Part shown: piece by piece, positions 30,442 to 37,833 of the stretch
Numbering within the stretch: position 1 is the first letter of the stretch
Layout: each line of letters starts with the position of its first letter
Source of the DNA: Jiulongibacter sediminis
GTDB lineage: Bacteria; Bacteroidota; Bacteroidia; Cytophagales; Spirosomataceae
Reading direction: 5' to 3'
NCBI RefSeq assembly: GCF_001306455.1
Contig: NZ_LGTQ01000005.1
Coordinates: 558,001 to 622,000 of the forward strand
DNA length: 64,000 nt
The notes under the pieces: model-generated
The model's database searches: none
Told to the model about the DNA's origin: nothing
What the model saw: the letters and a program-made list of their open reading frames with translations, nothing else
Made by a program: the position numbers and the translations under genes

Positions 30442-30447
30442 CTATTT

Positions 30448-30481
30448 GCAGAGGGATAGCGATCCGAACCCCCAGACCTTT
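30448..30481. repeat. Left attachment-site remnant (partial tRNA-Ser 3' end)
   Basis: 34 bp matching 37748-37781 at 30 of 34 positions (differences at 30457, 30460, 30464 and 30474), at an offset of exactly 7300 bp and in the same orientation. It corresponds to the acceptor 3' strand, T arm and part of the variable arm of tRNA-Ser. Two of the changes break T-stem pairs and the 5' part of a tRNA is absent, so it is not a functional tRNA. It marks the left end of the integrated element. Confidence 0.85.
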
Positions 30482-30837: not shown

Positions 30838-33225
30838 ATGACGAAAGTTTCCTTCAGCGTTTCTGCCAGAACTGCCAAACTAATTGGGCAAGAGAACTTT
30901 GCATCAGCCGAGGGGGCGATTGTTGAGTTGGTTAAAAATGGATATGACGCCGATGCTAAGAACTGTATAATAATCTTTCAAAATCATGACAGCTTTTCTA
31001 AGCATCCAGTTCTTTACATCATTGATAACGGTGTGGGAATGACCAGAAAAGTAATTCAGGATCACTGGATGAAGATTGGAACAGATGATAAACTTCAAAA
31101 CTACCTATCGGCCGATGGTCGTGTAAAAACCGGGGCCAAAGGTATTGGAAGGTTTGCATTAGATAGACTTGGGCAGGAGTCAGAAATGAAAACTATTTCC
31201 AAAGAAGAGCCAATTGAGAAGTCGATTTGGAAAGTCAAATGGAGCGATTTCGAACAAGTAGGCGTGGCCATTCATCAAGTAAAGGCCGATTTGGACCCAA
31301 GTGATGAACTAGACATTAAAGATGAGTTAAAAGCACAGTTTCAAGGATTTAAAGAAATTATAAATGTTCTGGACAAAACAAAATTTGATTCGGGAACTGT
31401 ACTCAAAATATCCCCACTAAAGGATGACTGGAATGTTGAGTCTATAAAGAGTCTCTTCAATAATTTGGAGGTTTTAATTCCACCTAAGGAGCAGCCAGAA
31501 TTTGCTGTACATCTGTTTTCAACCAACCAACTAGACGATTTTGGAGAAGTCAATAGTGCATATTATGATGATTTTGACTACAAAATTACAGCTAAGTACA
31601 TGGCAGATGATAAAAACACGGTATCAGTTGAAATTACAAGGAATGAGCTAGATGTAAAAAGACTCGAAGAGAATTTTGGTGAAGTTTTTGAGTTTGACCA
31701 AATGAAGGAATTTCCATACCGACTTGAGGACTTCAAAAAAGAGAATTTGACAATAAGTCGTCCTCTACTCAAATTGCCTGGTTTTTCGAAAGTAGACCCA
31801 GAATTACTTAAACAGATTGGCAAATTTGATTTCACATTTTACTTCCTGAAAAAGTCGCTTGTGAAAAAGGATTTAGTAAGATATCCGTATAAGAGTATGT
31901 CTCAGGCAAACCGAAAGGCTTGGCTTGAGAAATTTGGAGGAGTTAAGATTTTTAGAGATGATTTTAGGGTTAGGCCATATGGAGAAGATGGACAAGATTG
32001 GCTTGACCTTGGTAAAAGAGAGTCACGAAGTCCAGGGGGACCAGGTCAAAAAATGGGTGGCTATCGAATAGGACCAGATCAAATTTCAGGAACTGTTTCT
32101 ATTTCCAGAATTGCCAATGCAAGTTTTCAAGACAAATCCGGTCGTGAGGGTATCCAGGAAAATGAAGCTTTTAATCTATTCAAGAATATTATTGTCGAGA
32201 TCATTGCAATTTTCGAGCGGGATCGTAATGTTGTGATGTTTAATCTCAATGAACTTGAAAAGGCAAAAAACAAGGTTGAGGGGGATAAGCAAAAGGCAAA
32301 AGAAGAAGCTGAAAAAATATTAAGCCAAGGAGAAAATGTGGAATCCGACGGTTCAGAAGATGGGCAGGATGATTCTACCCCAGATGATTCGGACCCTACG
32401 GAGCGAGAAAGGCTCTTTGCTCGTAACACAAAAGTCCTTGAACAAGAAATAGAAGAAAAGGATGAGGAGATAAGGTTTTTGAGAGGGTTAGCAAGTGTAG
32501 GTCTGATAATTTCATCTTTTGCTCATGAACTGAAAAGCTTGAGAACAAGATTATCTCCTAGAACTGATTTTCTAGCTGGTGAGCTAAAAAAGTATATCTC
32601 CAAGGAAGATTTAAACGATGTCAATAAGCAAGAGAATCCTTTCTTCATGTTACAATTGATGAAAGAAGAGGACTTGAAACTCAAGCACTGGCTCGATTAT
32701 TCCCTTAGTACATTGAAAAGGGATAAGAGAACCAGAACAAATGTGAATATTGGTGAGTACTTCGAAAAATTTGAAGCAATTTGGAGCAATGCCTTGAAAC
32801 AGCGAAAAGTTCAGATTGTAAGAAAAGGTAGCAAAGACTCTGCGAATGTCATTAAGGCTTTTGAGGTTGATCTTGATGCCATTTTTCATAATCTTTTATC
32901 CAACTCCCTGACGGCTCTAAAAGAGAGAAAAGGAGACTATAAAAAACAAGTAACAATTGAATGGAAGGTTGTTGATGATTACATTGAAATTTTGTTCAAC
33001 GACAATGGTGTCGGTCTGGCTGAGGAATATCAAGCAGAACCAAATCGAATATTTGAGTACAACGAATCTTCAAAGCGAAATAATAAAGGAGATAAAATTG
33101 GAACTGGAATGGGTCTGTATATTGTCAATCTGGTTATTGACGATTATAACAAAGCAAAGCTCCAGCTAATGCCCGCTGAAGAGGGCTTTACAATTAAAAT
33201 AAATTTGCCAAAACGAAAGAAATAA
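30838..33225 (+). CDS. Dual GHKL ATPase: MORC/Hsp90-like N-terminus plus histidine kinase-like C-terminus
   Basis: 795 residues, soluble. Residues 1-120 are a GHKL ATPase: N-box EGAIVELVKNGYDADA (Glu30, Asn34), G1 IIDNGVGM (Asp63) and lid KTGAKGIGRFALDRLG (97-112). A transducer-like region follows to about 450, including KSGREGIQ (433-440). Residues 470-550 form a charged coiled coil with an acidic patch (501-523). Then come an H-box-like SFAHELKSL (His563) and a second GHKL domain: N-box FHNLLSNSLTAL (683-694), G1 NDNGVGL (722-727), G2 GTGMGLYIV (755-763). No membrane segment or sensor domain is seen. Lead gene of a four-gene operon with a receiver protein 7 bp downstream. Inferred role: intracellular sensor that controls the nuclease. 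Whether His563 is phosphorylated is unproven. Confidence 0.88.
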   Translation: MTKVSFSVSARTAKLIGQENFASAEGAIVELVKNGYDADAKNCIIIFQNHDSFSKHPVLYIIDNGVGMTRKVIQDHWMKIGTDDKLQNYLSADGRVKTGAKGIGRFALDRLGQESEMKTISKEEPIEKSIWKVKWSDFEQVGVAIHQVKADLDPSDELDIKDELKAQFQGFKEIINVLDKTKFDSGTVLKISPLKDDWNVESIKSLFNNLEVLIPPKEQPEFAVHLFSTNQLDDFGEVNSAYYDDFDYKITAKYMADDKNTVSVEITRNELDVKRLEENFGEVFEFDQMKEFPYRLEDFKKENLTISRPLLKLPGFSKVDPELLKQIGKFDFTFYFLKKSLVKKDLVRYPYKSMSQANRKAWLEKFGGVKIFRDDFRVRPYGEDGQDWLDLGKRESRSPGGPGQKMGGYRIGPDQISGTVSISRIANASFQDKSGREGIQENEAFNLFKNIIVEIIAIFERDRNVVMFNLNELEKAKNKVEGDKQKAKEEAEKILSQGENVESDGSEDGQDDSTPDDSDPTERERLFARNTKVLEQEIEEKDEEIRFLRGLASVGLIISSFAHELKSLRTRLSPRTDFLAGELKKYISKEDLNDVNKQENPFFMLQLMKEEDLKLKHWLDYSLSTLKRDKRTRTNVNIGEYFEKFEAIWSNALKQRKVQIVRKGSKDSANVIKAFEVDLDAIFHNLLSNSLTALKERKGDYKKQVTIEWKVVDDYIEILFNDNGVGLAEEYQAEPNRIFEYNESSKRNNKGDKIGTGMGLYIVNLVIDDYNKAKLQLMPAEEGFTIKINLPKRKK

Positions 33226-33232
33226 AATCGTC

Positions 33233-33862
33233 ATGCTTAGGGTAGGATATATTGATGAAGATGAAGGACAAAGGAATTCTTTCCATCACTTGTTCAAAGA
33301 TGAATTTGAAGTAATTCTTTTTGAAATAACCGAGGAGACCAATGCAGAAAATTTGGTTGATGAGGTATTGAAGTCGGCTATTGATGTTTTAGTTCTCGAT
33401 TTCAGATTGGACGAAAATGGTCTGGTTGATTTCAATGCGGATAAACTAGTTGAGGGAATTCAAGCCATAAATTTGTTTTATCCTCTGGTAGTTCTTACTT
33501 CTCATGAAGTAGATGCCCTTGATCATCTGGAAAATGCACATCTAGTCAATGGTAAAGATGACATGCTGGACTCGAAAATTGACATTTTTAAGCAAAAGCT
33601 CAGAAGTATAGCCTTGGATAATAAGAGAAAGATTGAAAGTGCTGAGGCAGAGTTAAAGAAATTGGAAGAGAAAAGAATAAATGGAGGCTTTGATTCAAAA
33701 GAAGAAGATAGATATGTTGAACTGAGCAGCTTTCTGGATCAAACTATTTCTGCAAAAGGAAGAGTATCGAGGAGCTTCTATTCTGAACATACAAACAAGA
33801 AGCTAGATGACTTGATTGGCCTGGCGGAACAGATGTTAAACAAAATGCCAGATCAGGAGTAA
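33233..33862 (+). CDS. Stand-alone response-regulator receiver protein with coiled-coil tail
   Basis: 209 residues. Receiver-domain residues are present: acidic cluster Asp8/Asp10 in GYIDEDE, phospho-acceptor Asp56 in VLVLDFRLDENG, Thr/Ser in VVLTSHE (89-90) and a Lys at 108. After residue 120 comes a helical, charged tail (SAEAELKKLEEKR) and an end rich in Leu/Lys, with no DNA-binding output domain. It is 7 bp after the dual ATPase gene and its stop overlaps the HNH gene start (TAATG), so kinase, receiver and nuclease are likely made together. It probably relays a phosphoryl signal to a protein partner. Confidence 0.85.
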   Translation: MLRVGYIDEDEGQRNSFHHLFKDEFEVILFEITEETNAENLVDEVLKSAIDVLVLDFRLDENGLVDFNADKLVEGIQAINLFYPLVVLTSHEVDALDHLENAHLVNGKDDMLDSKIDIFKQKLRSIALDNKRKIESAEAELKKLEEKRINGGFDSKEEDRYVELSSFLDQTISAKGRVSRSFYSEHTNKKLDDLIGLAEQMLNKMPDQE

Positions 33863-34476
33863 TGCATCCATTTAGAGAAAAAACACCCTTAAGAAGACCT
33901 GATAGAGCTAAATGTGAGCATTATAGCTCATACCTGAAGACACTCCGTGAAGACTTTACCCAAAGGTGTGGGTATTGCAATGACTTAGATAATTATCGAA
34001 TTAGAAGTTTTACCATAGATCACTTTGTTCCACAAAAGCCTATAGGATTTAAGACCACTATTGCTCCGAATTACTACTATAACCTTGTCTATGCATGCAG
34101 GTATTGTAATACCTCTAAAACTAACAAATGGCCGACCAATGACGAGAAGGTTCACAATGATGGCTCTAGAGGCTTTATTGACCCTGTTAAGCAAGAATAT
34201 ACTGATCTGTATAAAAGAACAAAATCAGGTAGAATTGTACCTGTAGATGACAAGAACGCGTTGGCTCATGATATCATAGCTGAGTTGAAGCTATGGCAGC
34301 CAATTCATGAACGGATGTGGAAATTCGAAAAGATTGACCGACTGATTGAGCAAATTGAACTGAGATTGAGCAAGGTAAAAGACCAGGCCGCTAAGGAAGT
34401 AGCAGAGGCTATTCATTACAAGCTCCTTAAGAGCTGGAGGGAGATTCAAAAAGGAATCTTTGTTGACAATGATTAA
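33862..34476 (+). CDS. HNH endonuclease
   Basis: 204 residues. An HNH fold with zinc-knuckle Cys pairs: CGYC (36-39), FTIDHFVPQ with the catalytic-type Asp53-His54, NLVYACRYCNTSKTNKW with Asn74, CxxC (79-82), Asn83 and Lys86. The C-terminal half is helical (RMWKFEKIDRLIEQIELRLSK) and may bind a partner. McrA-type HNH proteins cut DNA in many restriction and phage-defence systems. Stop/start overlaps on both sides place it in a fixed order between receiver and methyltransferase, and it is the likely effector. Target specificity is unknown. Confidence 0.9.
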   Translation: MHPFREKTPLRRPDRAKCEHYSSYLKTLREDFTQRCGYCNDLDNYRIRSFTIDHFVPQKPIGFKTTIAPNYYYNLVYACRYCNTSKTNKWPTNDEKVHNDGSRGFIDPVKQEYTDLYKRTKSGRIVPVDDKNALAHDIIAELKLWQPIHERMWKFEKIDRLIEQIELRLSKVKDQAAKEVAEAIHYKLLKSWREIQKGIFVDND

Positions 34477-36298
34477 TGATCTATTCTCATATCTCAAGTT
34501 TTATTCAAAAAAAACTTTAGAAGTCGATAAACTTCTTGTTTCTGCCTTTTTGTACACCAATGAATTGACTGATAGAGCTAACGGCTTTCTTCAGGACTAT
34601 CTCATTCACCCTGAAGAACCGGATTTTCAAGACCTATCGGATTTCATGGCAATTCACAGTCTTGTAGATCTTGAGGAATTAGTAGCACTATTTGAGTTTG
34701 TTATTTCACCTGCCGAAAAGATCGTTTCGGGTGCAGTTTATACTCCCAAAAACATAAGAAACTACATCTTAGATAAGTGTTTGAATGATCTGGATGATTT
34801 AAATTCTGTAATGATCTGTGACCCTGCATGTGGATGTTCAGGTTTTTTGTTTTCTGCTGCAAGAATCATCAAGCATGAAACCAAAAGAGCATACTATCAA
34901 ATATTTGCAGAGAATCTATTCGGTTTGGATATTCAAGAATATGCAATCACACGCTCAAAAATTTTATTGAACCTTTTGGCAATTAGTGAAGGGGAGATAA
35001 ATACAGAGTTTCAATTCAATCTTTTTACTGGGAATTCATTAAGCTTTCATTGGGCTGAGCATATAGAGGGCTTTGACGGTTTTACGACAATTGTAGGGAA
35101 TCCACCTTATGTATGTTCGAGAAACATAGACGACGAATCAAAACGATTGATTTTTGATTGGGAGGTTAGTTCTTCAGGTCACCCTGATCTTTATATTCCA
35201 TTTTTTCAAATTGGTTATGAAAACCTCAAACCTGATGGCAAACTTGGCTTTATTACCATGAATACCTTCTTTAAAAGCGTTAATGGTAGGGCTTTAAGAC
35301 AATATTTTGAAGATAAATCTATTTTGTTGCAGATTCTTGATTTTGGAAGTAATCAGATTTTTCAAAGTAAATCAACATATACTTGTATTTGTATTATTCA
35401 AAAAGCTGAATCCAATGAAATTAAATTTGCAACCGGTGATAAAAACTTTTTGGATAAAAAAATTCTCTTCCATTCGATTCCATATACTAAACTAAACCAT
35501 AGAAATGGTTGGAACCTTCGACATCATGATCTATTGAGCCAGATTGAAAATACTGGTCAGCCATTTGGGGAGTTATACTCTACACGAAATGGGATTGCAA
35601 CACTTAAAAATCATATTTATATTTTCACTGAAATTAAAGAAGATAGAGATTACTACTACCTAGAGAATGGGGCTGTATACCCGATAGAAAAGGAAATTTG
35701 TAAAGACATTATTAATCCGAATAAATTCACTAAAGCAACCTCAATAGATCAATTAACTGAGAAAGTTATTTTCCCATATAGTTTTGATGATTCTGGCCAT
35801 GCAAGATTGATTTCCGAGCATAAAATGAAAGAAGAATATCCAAAGGCCTATGAGTATCTCAAGTCGAAAAAAGAGTTATTGGCAAGTAGAGATAAGGGTA
35901 ATGGGAAATATGAAAACTGGTACGCCTATGGAAGAAATCAATCCTTAGAGAAATATAAGTTTAAAATGTTTTTTCCTCATATAACTCCACATATTCCCAA
36001 TTATACCATCAGTACGGATGAAAACTTGCTTTTTTATAATGGTATTGCAGTGGTGTCTGAGAAAGAGCAAGAGCTAAATTTTCTCAAGAAACTCATGAGT
36101 TCGGACTTATTCTGGTTTTATGTTATTCATTCGAGCAAACCTTATGGATCAGGTTACTTCTCGCTAAGTAGAAACTATATCAAGGGTTTTGGTGTGGCGG
36201 AATTTAGTGAAGAAGAAAAGTCCGATATTGCCCACTTGGAGCAACCCGTGGTTAACGAATTAATCAATAGGAAATATGGTATTGATCCTTATGTTTGA
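34469..36298 (+). CDS. N6-adenine DNA methyltransferase (Eco57I/TaqI-like)
   Basis: 609 residues from the ATG at 34469, overlapping the HNH stop by 8 bp; a TTG three codons earlier is possible. Motif I DPACGCSGFLF (118-128) binds SAM, VGNPPYV (209-215) is the gamma-type catalytic NPPY, and GAVYTPKNIRNYI precedes them as in bifunctional Type IIG-like enzymes. The C-terminal part (KMFFPHITPHIPNYT, SSDLFWFYVIHSSKPYGSG, YIKGF) resembles the TaqI-type specificity domain. No PD-(D/E)XK nuclease motif is seen in the N-terminal 90 residues, so it should be a methyltransferase only, with cleavage supplied by the HNH protein. Recognition sequence unknown. Confidence 0.92.
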   Translation: MINDLFSYLKFYSKKTLEVDKLLVSAFLYTNELTDRANGFLQDYLIHPEEPDFQDLSDFMAIHSLVDLEELVALFEFVISPAEKIVSGAVYTPKNIRNYILDKCLNDLDDLNSVMICDPACGCSGFLFSAARIIKHETKRAYYQIFAENLFGLDIQEYAITRSKILLNLLAISEGEINTEFQFNLFTGNSLSFHWAEHIEGFDGFTTIVGNPPYVCSRNIDDESKRLIFDWEVSSSGHPDLYIPFFQIGYENLKPDGKLGFITMNTFFKSVNGRALRQYFEDKSILLQILDFGSNQIFQSKSTYTCICIIQKAESNEIKFATGDKNFLDKKILFHSIPYTKLNHRNGWNLRHHDLLSQIENTGQPFGELYSTRNGIATLKNHIYIFTEIKEDRDYYYLENGAVYPIEKEICKDIINPNKFTKATSIDQLTEKVIFPYSFDDSGHARLISEHKMKEEYPKAYEYLKSKKELLASRDKGNGKYENWYAYGRNQSLEKYKFKMFFPHITPHIPNYTISTDENLLFYNGIAVVSEKEQELNFLKKLMSSDLFWFYVIHSSKPYGSGYFSLSRNYIKGFGVAEFSEEEKSDIAHLEQPVVNELINRKYGIDPYV

Positions 36299-36341: not shown

Positions 36342-37568
36342 TTATGCAGCTTTATTTAATGTAGTCTTTTCGATTAAAGAAAATACTTTCTGAAGCTCAT
36401 GGTGATTTACTCTAGTATTCAAATAATGTTTCAAATAAGCCGTTGACTTCAAGCCCAAGGCAAAAGCTATCTGATCGTCATTAAGGCCGTAAATCGCCCT
36501 CAAGGTTTCAGCAAAAGTTTTCCGTCCTACCTTGGTAGTAATTTCTTTGTCAATACCACATCTTGAAGCCAAGTCTTTTAAATGGCTATTCAAACTTTGA
36601 TGGGCATATCTTGGCAAGTTCTGAAGGCCCCCGTATTTGTCAATTATTCTCAAAACACGATTGGTAAGCATTATACTATGAGGCACCAAAGTCTTCTGTC
36701 TGGCCATATCTACCCAGGAATTTCCGTATTGATCGAGATAGACAATACTCGATTTTACAATCCTGTCATAATCTCCAATGTGTTGTCCGATGTCACATAA
36801 TACAAGCAAAATATCTCTAACCTTATCTAAGCGACCTATTAACGCCTGATGTTCGATTGTAGAAACTTCATCAGGAGTTAAGAAAAGAGTTTCGGGTAAG
36901 CCTTCCCGATGGCGTAATATATCTTTTGTTTGAACTTTCATCTGCCATCCATCAGAGAGGTAAAAAGTCGAATCCACAATTTCCCGTAAGATTTGCCTAT
37001 GTTTATTCGCAGTAGTCTCTTTGAAATGGTAATTATACTTGAGTGCTTTAATGAAGTTGTTACAGAAATCGAGATCAATTACTGTGACCGGGGTATTGGC
37101 TGGATTCAATTTCAAATCATTCAGATAAGCCAGAAGATTCCTTTCATATTGTCGGTATCGACTAGCCGAGACCTTAGAAATTGTAAGGCCAATTTTTGAT
37201 TCCCTCCGTTCGTGAACTTTTATCAAGACTTCGGAAATAGTATTAACCCGAATTTCCTTTGTCTGAAATAAAGCATCAATACCATCCTGGTACTTTTTGA
37301 CAATAATTTCAGGACTCAAGGGCAGTTTGTTGGATTTCAAATGATGGAAAACACGAAGAAGGTCAGCCCTAATTTGGGACAAGCTTGTATTGATTTCAAT
37401 GTTTACCGGACTTGAGTGGTCCAGGTATTGTTTAGAAGAAATCCATTGGTCAGGGTGAATAATGTGACCCGTGGCAAAGTTCTTTTGCTCGTTGTTGTGG
37501 TGAACTCTACCGATAATGGATTTGTAAGGATTGTTTCTTGTAGGCCGAAGCCAGAAGGAAATTTTCAT
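36342..37568 (-). CDS. Tyrosine recombinase/integrase, divergent
   Basis: 408 residues from the ATG at 37568 (MKISFWLRPTRNNPYKSIIG, the usual N-terminal arm of Bacteroidota integrases); the 49 codons upstream run through a terminator and are not coding. A SAM-like core-binding domain (about 110-210) precedes the catalytic domain. Catalytic positions: Arg I is replaced by His263 (IGQHIGDYD where relatives have GxR), Lys292 is present, the HxxR box is KVGR (Arg349 kept, also seen in Bacteroidota relatives), the GH His is Leu373, and the nucleophile Tyr382 is present in KHYLNTR. It lies between the defence operon and the tRNA-Ser gene, convergent with the methyltransferase (43-bp gap). Confidence 0.85.
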   Translation of the reverse strand: MKISFWLRPTRNNPYKSIIGRVHHNNEQKNFATGHIIHPDQWISSKQYLDHSSPVNIEINTSLSQIRADLLRVFHHLKSNKLPLSPEIIVKKYQDGIDALFQTKEIRVNTISEVLIKVHERRESKIGLTISKVSASRYRQYERNLLAYLNDLKLNPANTPVTVIDLDFCNNFIKALKYNYHFKETTANKHRQILREIVDSTFYLSDGWQMKVQTKDILRHREGLPETLFLTPDEVSTIEHQALIGRLDKVRDILLVLCDIGQHIGDYDRIVKSSIVYLDQYGNSWVDMARQKTLVPHSIMLTNRVLRIIDKYGGLQNLPRYAHQSLNSHLKDLASRCGIDKEITTKVGRKTFAETLRAIYGLNDDQIAFALGLKSTAYLKHYLNTRVNHHELQKVFSLIEKTTLNKAA

Positions 37569-37703
37569 TGTACTGATATTGAATAAATTGAGATTAGTTA
37601 AGCGTTGAATTGCAACACTTGTGCCAACTGGTCGCACACCAAAATACCCGTGCGACCATTCTTGACGTATACGAGTATTAAGTACAGTAAAGGCAGAAGA
37701 AAA

Positions 37704-37728
37704 AAAGGGCTCCAAAATGGAGCCCTTT
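37704..37728 (-). terminator. Terminator following tRNA-Ser
   Basis: Perfect 10-bp stem (AAAGGGCTCC 37704-37713 with 37719-37728) with a T-run on the minus strand, 20 bp after the tRNA 3' end. It lies inside the element, between the attachment site and the integrase, so the element supplies the tRNA's terminator. Confidence 0.8.
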
Positions 37729-37747
37729 ACTCTATATTATAGTTTTC

Positions 37748-37781
37748 GCAGAGGGAGAGGGATTCGAACCCCCGGACCTTT
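37748..37781. repeat. Right attachment site within tRNA-Ser
   Basis: Copy of the 34-bp direct repeat whose degenerate partner is at 30448-30481. It spans the tRNA-Ser 3' end through the T arm into the variable arm, the usual crossover region for tRNA-targeting integrases. Confidence 0.85.
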
Positions 37782-37833
37782 GACAGTCAACGGTTTTCAA
37801 GACCGCCGCATTCGACCACTCTGCCATCCCTCT
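37749..37833 (-). tRNA. tRNA-Ser (anticodon UGA)
   Basis: 85 nt, class II tRNA. Acceptor AGAGGGA pairs with TCCCTCT, discriminator G; D arm GCAGAGTGGTCGAATGC; anticodon stem-loop CGGTCTTGAAAACCG giving TGA; long variable arm TGACTGTCAAAGGTCC; T arm GGGGGTTCGAATCCCTC. CCA is not encoded. The 3' half is the integration target of the element at 30448-37747. Confidence 0.97.

Follow-up and report, generated by a model that had tools for sequence, protein, structure and literature searches.

An N-terminal MORC/SMCHD1-like GHKL ATPase with its transducer domain is fused to a complete C-terminal histidine kinase in a protein encoded within the window, the whole 64,000-nucleotide stretch of Jiulongibacter sediminis DNA analysed here. 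The gene lies in a conserved operon that also encodes an HNH nuclease and an N6-adenine methylase, a setting that goes beyond the preliminary description of this DNA. We give even chances to the hypothesis that the operon is a mobile restriction-type defence cassette driven by a two-component relay.

Domain organization of the clamp-kinase

The clamp-kinase gene is a single unbroken ORF for 795 amino acids with the following features:

30838-33225, forward strand: clamp-kinase gene, GHKL-S5 clamp, coiled coil, DHp and CA (795 aa)
30838-31482, forward strand: N-terminal MORC-like GHKL ATPase domain, residues about 1-215 (Pfam; Foldseek to MORC2, MORC3 and SMCHD1)
30925-30939, forward strand: N-terminal N-box, E30 to N34 (ELVKN), E30 in 126/127 and N34 in 127/127 homologues
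31024-31041, forward strand: N-terminal G1 box DNGVGM, D63-M68 (alignments)
31132-31155, forward strand: N-terminal ATP lid GAKGIGRF, residues 99-106 (alignments)
31483-32157, forward strand: S5/transducer-like middle domain, residues about 216-440, limits approximate (AlphaFold2 and Foldseek to MORC2)
32164-32346, forward strand: long helix or coiled coil, residues 443-503 (AlphaFold2 model)
32401-32589, forward strand: DHp helix 1, residues 522-584, 63 residues, holding His563 (AlphaFold2; profile alignment to ThkA, ZraS and FixL)
32524-32526, forward strand: His563, predicted phospho-accepting histidine (FAHE in FAHELKSL), in 127/127 and 46/46 homologues
32638-32709, forward strand: DHp helix 2, residues 601-624 (AlphaFold2 model)
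32737-33216, forward strand: CA kinase domain, residues 634-793, with N685/N689, DNGVGL (in NDNGVGL) and GTGMGL (Pfam, alignments)

Pfam matches HATPase_c_3 at residues 23-140 (E 3e-18) and HATPase_c at residues 677-793 (E 1.4e-15), both over the curated cut-offs. The AlphaFold2 monomer model, built from an alignment of 46 homologues, has a mean pLDDT of 84.6. Its N-terminal half is alpha/beta up to about residue 440, as is the C-terminal segment 634-793; a pTM of 0.61 leaves the mutual placement of the halves uncertain. Foldseek gives human MORC2 as the best PDB match of the model, over about 500 aligned columns spanning the GHKL domain plus the transducer. MORC3 and SMCHD1 are also among the top PDB matches, interleaved with the DHp-CA regions of ZraS, LvrB, CpxA and HK853. 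The family profile extends the homology to histidine kinases across the entire DHp-CA region (ThkA, E 8e-40; ZraS, 2e-39), and the family histidine aligns with the 'aHei' of solved histidine kinases. The protein thus carries the features of a two-component histidine kinase, which are a DHp phospho-histidine and the N, G1, F and G2 boxes of a CA domain, together with those of MORC and paraMORC proteins, which are the N-terminal GHKL domain plus S5, the catalytic glutamate and the lid, with MORC2 as the nearest fold.

The preliminary description had proposed two GHKL modules of different types in one chain. The AlphaFold2, Foldseek and profile results show that this reading is right, with HATPase_c_3 and HATPase_c in Pfam and MORC2 and histidine kinase folds in Foldseek. 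All the motifs that it quoted are present, namely the N-box (which reads EGAIVELVKNGYDAD in the N-terminal domain), DNGVGM, the KGIGR lid, FAHELKSL with its histidine at position 563, NDNGVGL and GTGMGL. The helix that it called H-box-like is a real H-box in a two-helix DHp domain with His563, according to the AlphaFold2 model and the histidine kinase profile alignment. The limits that it gave to the two modules were too narrow: the N-terminal one covers residues 1 to about 440 and not 1-120, and the kinase covers about 522-793 and not only 683-763.

The fusion is no product of misjoining or of a frameshift between two genes, since the 31 loci of the clade described below have the identical full-length architecture. 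A chance origin of the domain pair is likewise ruled out, as both ATPase families are matched in 13/13 close homologues aligned.

Conservation of the two ATP sites and of the histidine

Loss of His563 among homologues had been set beforehand as an observation that would speak against the kinase reading. The residue is found in 127/127 full-length homologues aligned, down to about 22% identity, and never being lost among them it leaves that objection without ground. In the 46-sequence alignment, which has 21% mean column identity and reaches 22% identity, His563 is invariant together with N685/N689 and G755/G757/G759. This invariance and the alignments with histidine kinase profiles rule out a chance or low-complexity H-box. 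The N-terminal ATP site is equally constant: N34, D63, G65, G67, K101, G102 and G104 are present in 127/127 homologues and E30 in 126/127, the exception being a gap in one clade member.

The C-terminal ATP site is kept in nearly all members of the window clade. In the six proteins of the HEF_HK branch (see the last section), D722 is replaced by N in 5/6 and G726 by K in 4/6. Because the CA domain of HEF_HK looks eroded, phosphotransfer may not be essential family-wide. The C-terminal GHKL domain might then be a structural ATP switch or a dimerisation element that moves no phosphate, with the receiver docking unphosphorylated on the DHp helices. This agrees with the degenerate CA G1 box found next to an intact N-terminal ATPase in most sampled HEF_HK members, but in the window clade D722 is intact in 30/31 proteins, His563 is present in 31/31, the residue after it is E or D in 30/31, and Asp56 of the receiver is invariant. 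We consider the non-catalytic role improbable for the window protein.

Receiver, nuclease and methylase genes

The window cassette has the order clamp-kinase, receiver, HNH nuclease and Eco57I-type N6-adenine methylase. The three genes that follow the clamp-kinase are:

33233-33862, forward strand: receiver protein, 209 aa, (beta-alpha)5 REC with C-terminal helices (residues, model, Foldseek)
33398-33400, forward strand: Asp56, predicted phospho-acceptor (invariant in alignments)
33862-34476, forward strand: HNH endonuclease, 204 aa, distant PtuB similarity (Pfam HNH 6e-8; PADLOC PtuB 5e-13)
34460-36298, forward strand: Eco57I-type N6-adenine DNA methyltransferase, 612 aa, NPPY (Pfam Eco57I 6e-28; PADLOC MTase_II 4e-105)

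The preliminary description had spoken of a receiver protein as the target of phosphotransfer; a receiver gene does adjoin the kinase gene, and its product has a REC fold with an invariant Asp56. D8, D56, T89 and K108 are invariant in 15 aligned proteins, D8 forming an acidic pair with E9. The window receiver matches Pfam Response_reg weakly (E 0.038); among the 15 aligned homologues, 12 have a match to it with E<=0.1, the best at 1.4e-4. The model has a pLDDT of 87 and its top PDB matches in Foldseek are receiver domains (prob 1.00). The protein therefore has the acidic pair, phospho-Asp, Thr/Ser, Lys and (beta-alpha)5 fold of response regulators.

No DNA-binding output domain was detected in the receiver by Pfam, in the 15 homologues or in the model, which makes regulation of transcription a less probable output. 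This bears on the idea that the genes form a regulatory two-component system sensing NTP levels or other cell states and tuning the expression of restriction-modification genes or the activity of the methylase, rather than gating the nuclease. Such a role would suit the location among restriction-modification genes and the published speculation about NTP sensing by HATPase_c_3 (PMC8011034). We judge it very unlikely, given the receiver's lack of a detected output domain and an N-terminal half that has the fold of a MORC clamp including the transducer, which exceeds the needs of an NTP-binding sensor.

The HNH residues C36, H54, N74, C79 and N83 are invariant in 15/15 aligned nucleases. Methylase and nuclease share one operon as in Type II-like restriction-modification, and both are found in 28/31 loci of the clade. 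A different use of the relay would be the release of the nuclease: the receiver, or the methylase, would restrain the HNH protein and phosphorylation would break the complex as in VapKSC, giving an abortive or toxin-antitoxin-like response triggered by DNA damage. The three-gene layout of kinase, phosphoprotein and nuclease resembles VapKSC (PMC13373217) and the HNH protein is distantly similar to PtuB, an effector class. The methylase kept with the cassette (28/31) fits the marking of self and non-self better than a pure toxin, however, and we find release by phosphorylation rather unlikely.

A putative island at tRNA-Ser

The cassette is followed by an integrase gene and a tRNA gene:

36342-37715, reverse strand: tyrosine recombinase/integrase (Arm-DNA-bind_5 8e-6, Phage_int_SAM_5; C-terminus XerA/XerD-like)
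37748-37833, reverse strand: tRNA-Ser (TGA), presumed attachment site (tRNA call)
37745-37781, no strand: 37-nt att-like repeat that forms the 3' end of the tRNA (direct repeat D4)
30445-30481, no strand: distal att-like repeat, with 86% identity to the 3' end of the tRNA (direct repeat D4, spacing 7300)

The four-gene cassette and the tyrosine integrase fill the 7.3 kb between the att-like repeats, the cassette being the only cargo. The segment is a putative tRNA-Ser island with the usual layout of tRNA-borne islands. No clean empty site was found in two congeners around the photolyase and tRNA-Ser genes (L187, L188, L195 and L196), because both genes have unrelated surroundings there. The diverged att-like repeat and the unrelated genes flanking the congener tRNA-Ser suggest a variable site.

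Distribution and sister branches

The order kinase, receiver, HNH nuclease is found at 31 loci; on the kinase tree these make up a single group, requiring one change versus 5.8 in shuffles. Among the hosts are Bacteroidota, Alphaproteobacteria (Ensifer, Salipiger) and Deinococcus. An N6 methylase gene adjoins 28 of the 31 loci, upstream or downstream depending on the locus; for two of the remaining three a contig end is near, and L101, a member of the clade, has no methylase nearby. Relatives of the clamp-kinase are also carried by plasmids, and 94 were found in a scan of viral contigs, each of which may be a phage or a prophage edge. A loose motif search, indicative only, gave receiver-like patterns in 115/122 proteins encoded downstream.

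Sister branches pair the kinase and receiver with other genes: a metallo-hydrolase in Burkholderia (L051) and Hymenobacter (L049), an HNH_2 protein (L080), C5 methylases (L067 and Campylobacter L052) or long receivers. This exchange of effector-like genes fits a scheme in which the kinase-receiver pair is the switch and the last gene is the output.

Loci L049, L051, L069, L115, L118 and L128 have the order N6 methylase, clamp-kinase, short receiver and a protein of about 325-360 aa. A metallo-beta-lactamase fold was found for this protein in L051 and is annotated in L049; in the branch of these two loci it is likely an alternative effector. Conjugative plasmids of Campylobacter (L052 and some 40 plasmid records) encode a divergent clamp-kinase together with a receiver of the long type and a C5 methylase. 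The clamp-kinase is split in two or three frames in L043, L048 and L053, adjoining receiver and/or HNH genes, which suggests either that the switch is decaying in some hosts or that the frames were broken by errors in sequencing. Positions 10039-11299 of L134 hold two short genes in tandem after the kinase, each with a receiver-like start (VIIDD, LVIDE), possibly a two-receiver variant. The HEF_HK-branch loci L075-L078, L082 and L083 have an eroded G1 box and retain His563, the N-terminal ATPase and the partner gene; by their residues they are possible pseudokinases within the published founding family.

A proposed relay model

Sequence and prediction show the domains, the intact active sites, the conservation, the operon and the probable island. 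In favour of a relay, His563 and the N-terminal ATP site are kept in 127 homologues and the REC residues encoded next door are invariant. In the relay that we propose, the methylase would mark host DNA. The clamp-kinase, probably a soluble dimer, would bind or enclose DNA through its MORC-like GHKL-S5 half in an ATP-dependent manner, with DNA as the presumed signal. The trigger could be the right state of DNA, unmodified or damaged invader DNA. Its encounter would reorient the coiled coil and the DHp helices so that the CA domain phosphorylates His563, and the phosphate would pass to Asp56 of the receiver. The helical tail of the receiver may then turn on the HNH nuclease, the supposed output; we infer this putative physical link between receiver and nuclease from gene order. 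By analogy, each step is plausible from the precedents of MORC2, Shedu GHKL and CapK/VapK. Speaking against the model are the eroded CA domain of HEF_HK, the changing place of the methylase gene among loci and its absence near L101.

If the relay is real, restriction here would depend on a DNA clamp that controls the nuclease through His-Asp phosphotransfer. A single chain would combine the GHKL fold in two roles and offer a bacterial model of how MORC clamps report the state of DNA. We also put forward, tentatively and with the balance slightly against it, a wider hypothesis: a MORC-type clamp serves as the input of a histidine kinase, the enclosing of non-self DNA is converted to a His-to-Asp signal, this signal permits a separate nuclease to act, and the same switch is reused on several unrelated effectors in bacteria and phages.

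Comparison with known systems

Prokaryotic MORC proteins of restriction-modification systems (paraMORCs) share the MORC-like GHKL plus S5 and the location in mobile restriction operons, next to genes for HNH nucleases and methylases, as presented in the part of Iyer et al. (2008, PMC2292703) used here; that part describes no histidine kinase or receiver, and the nuclease or a TIR domain is fused. The human protein MORC2 functions as a clamp on DNA (PMC12216690). The BbrUII/HgiDII restriction enzymes (NCBIfam NF050001) are matched at residues 7-125 (5e-11), a hit limited to the ATPase domain and far under the curated cut-off (41.7 vs 550 bits); 38/46 aligned homologues match the same model. This match of the N-terminal domain links the ATPase of the clamp-kinase to restriction.

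CapKS and VapKSC also use a GHKL kinase that phosphorylates a small partner. CapK is activated by single-stranded DNA, VapK acts on a nuclease inhibitor and so releases the nuclease, and VapKSC gives about 2-log protection against phage Bas42. These systems differ from the window cassette by serine phosphorylation of a STAS protein, an HTH-STAS sensor, one GHKL domain and no methylase (PMC13373217). In the GHKL-Shedu protein VcSduA a GHKL ATPase is proposed to control a defence nuclease and an ATP-site mutant loses defence, but the PD-(D/E)xK nuclease is fused directly and there is no kinase, receiver or methylase (PMC12137116). In the DefensePredictor article, HATPase and REC appear only in a legend that lists predicted domains (PMC13092281).

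The closest known family is HEF_HK with its partner Response_reg_2 (PF19191/PF19192). Bellieny-Rabelo et al. (2021, PMC8011034) found HATPase_c_3, HEF_HK and HATPase_c together in 174/222 proteins, with 91.6% linkage to a receiver-like neighbour and enrichment of restriction-modification genes, and suggested a descent from paraMORCs. Since this architecture was published there, the two GHKL domains that gave the preliminary description its title were already known; its term 'soluble clamp-kinase hybrid' is apt, though not for something new. The window protein has the same HATPase_c_3, DHp and HATPase_c domains, with the histidine followed by an acidic residue; it is soluble, has an adjacent receiver-like gene and a restriction-modification neighbourhood, and falls in a common superfamily tree. 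At the level of the Pfam models, membership is not reached by the window pair. PF19191 is matched neither by the window protein (E<=1) nor by its 12 aligned close homologues (13 proteins, E<=0.1), nor elsewhere in the window's own genome, and PF19192 is matched by none of the 15 aligned receivers, the window's and 14 homologues; the partner in the L075 branch does match PF19192. A literature search by domain names, with most subscription journals outside it, returned the 2021 paper, one incidental use of the names and two citations, but no experimental test of the HEF_HK/Response_reg_2 pair, and no demonstration of phosphotransfer, nuclease activity or phage defence in this kinase-receiver family was found in the literature searched.

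The window clade differs from HEF_HK in being a separate supported clade, in its short receiver and in a cassette where the HNH nuclease is a separate protein accompanied by an Eco57I-type methylase. Its kinase is intact, whereas the G1 box is eroded in the HEF_HK members sampled. While the fusion itself has been known since 2021, what is new here is a distinct branch with a more intact kinase in a compact, mobile four-gene cassette. These properties and its wide distribution make the branch a good system for the hypothesis left open in 2021.
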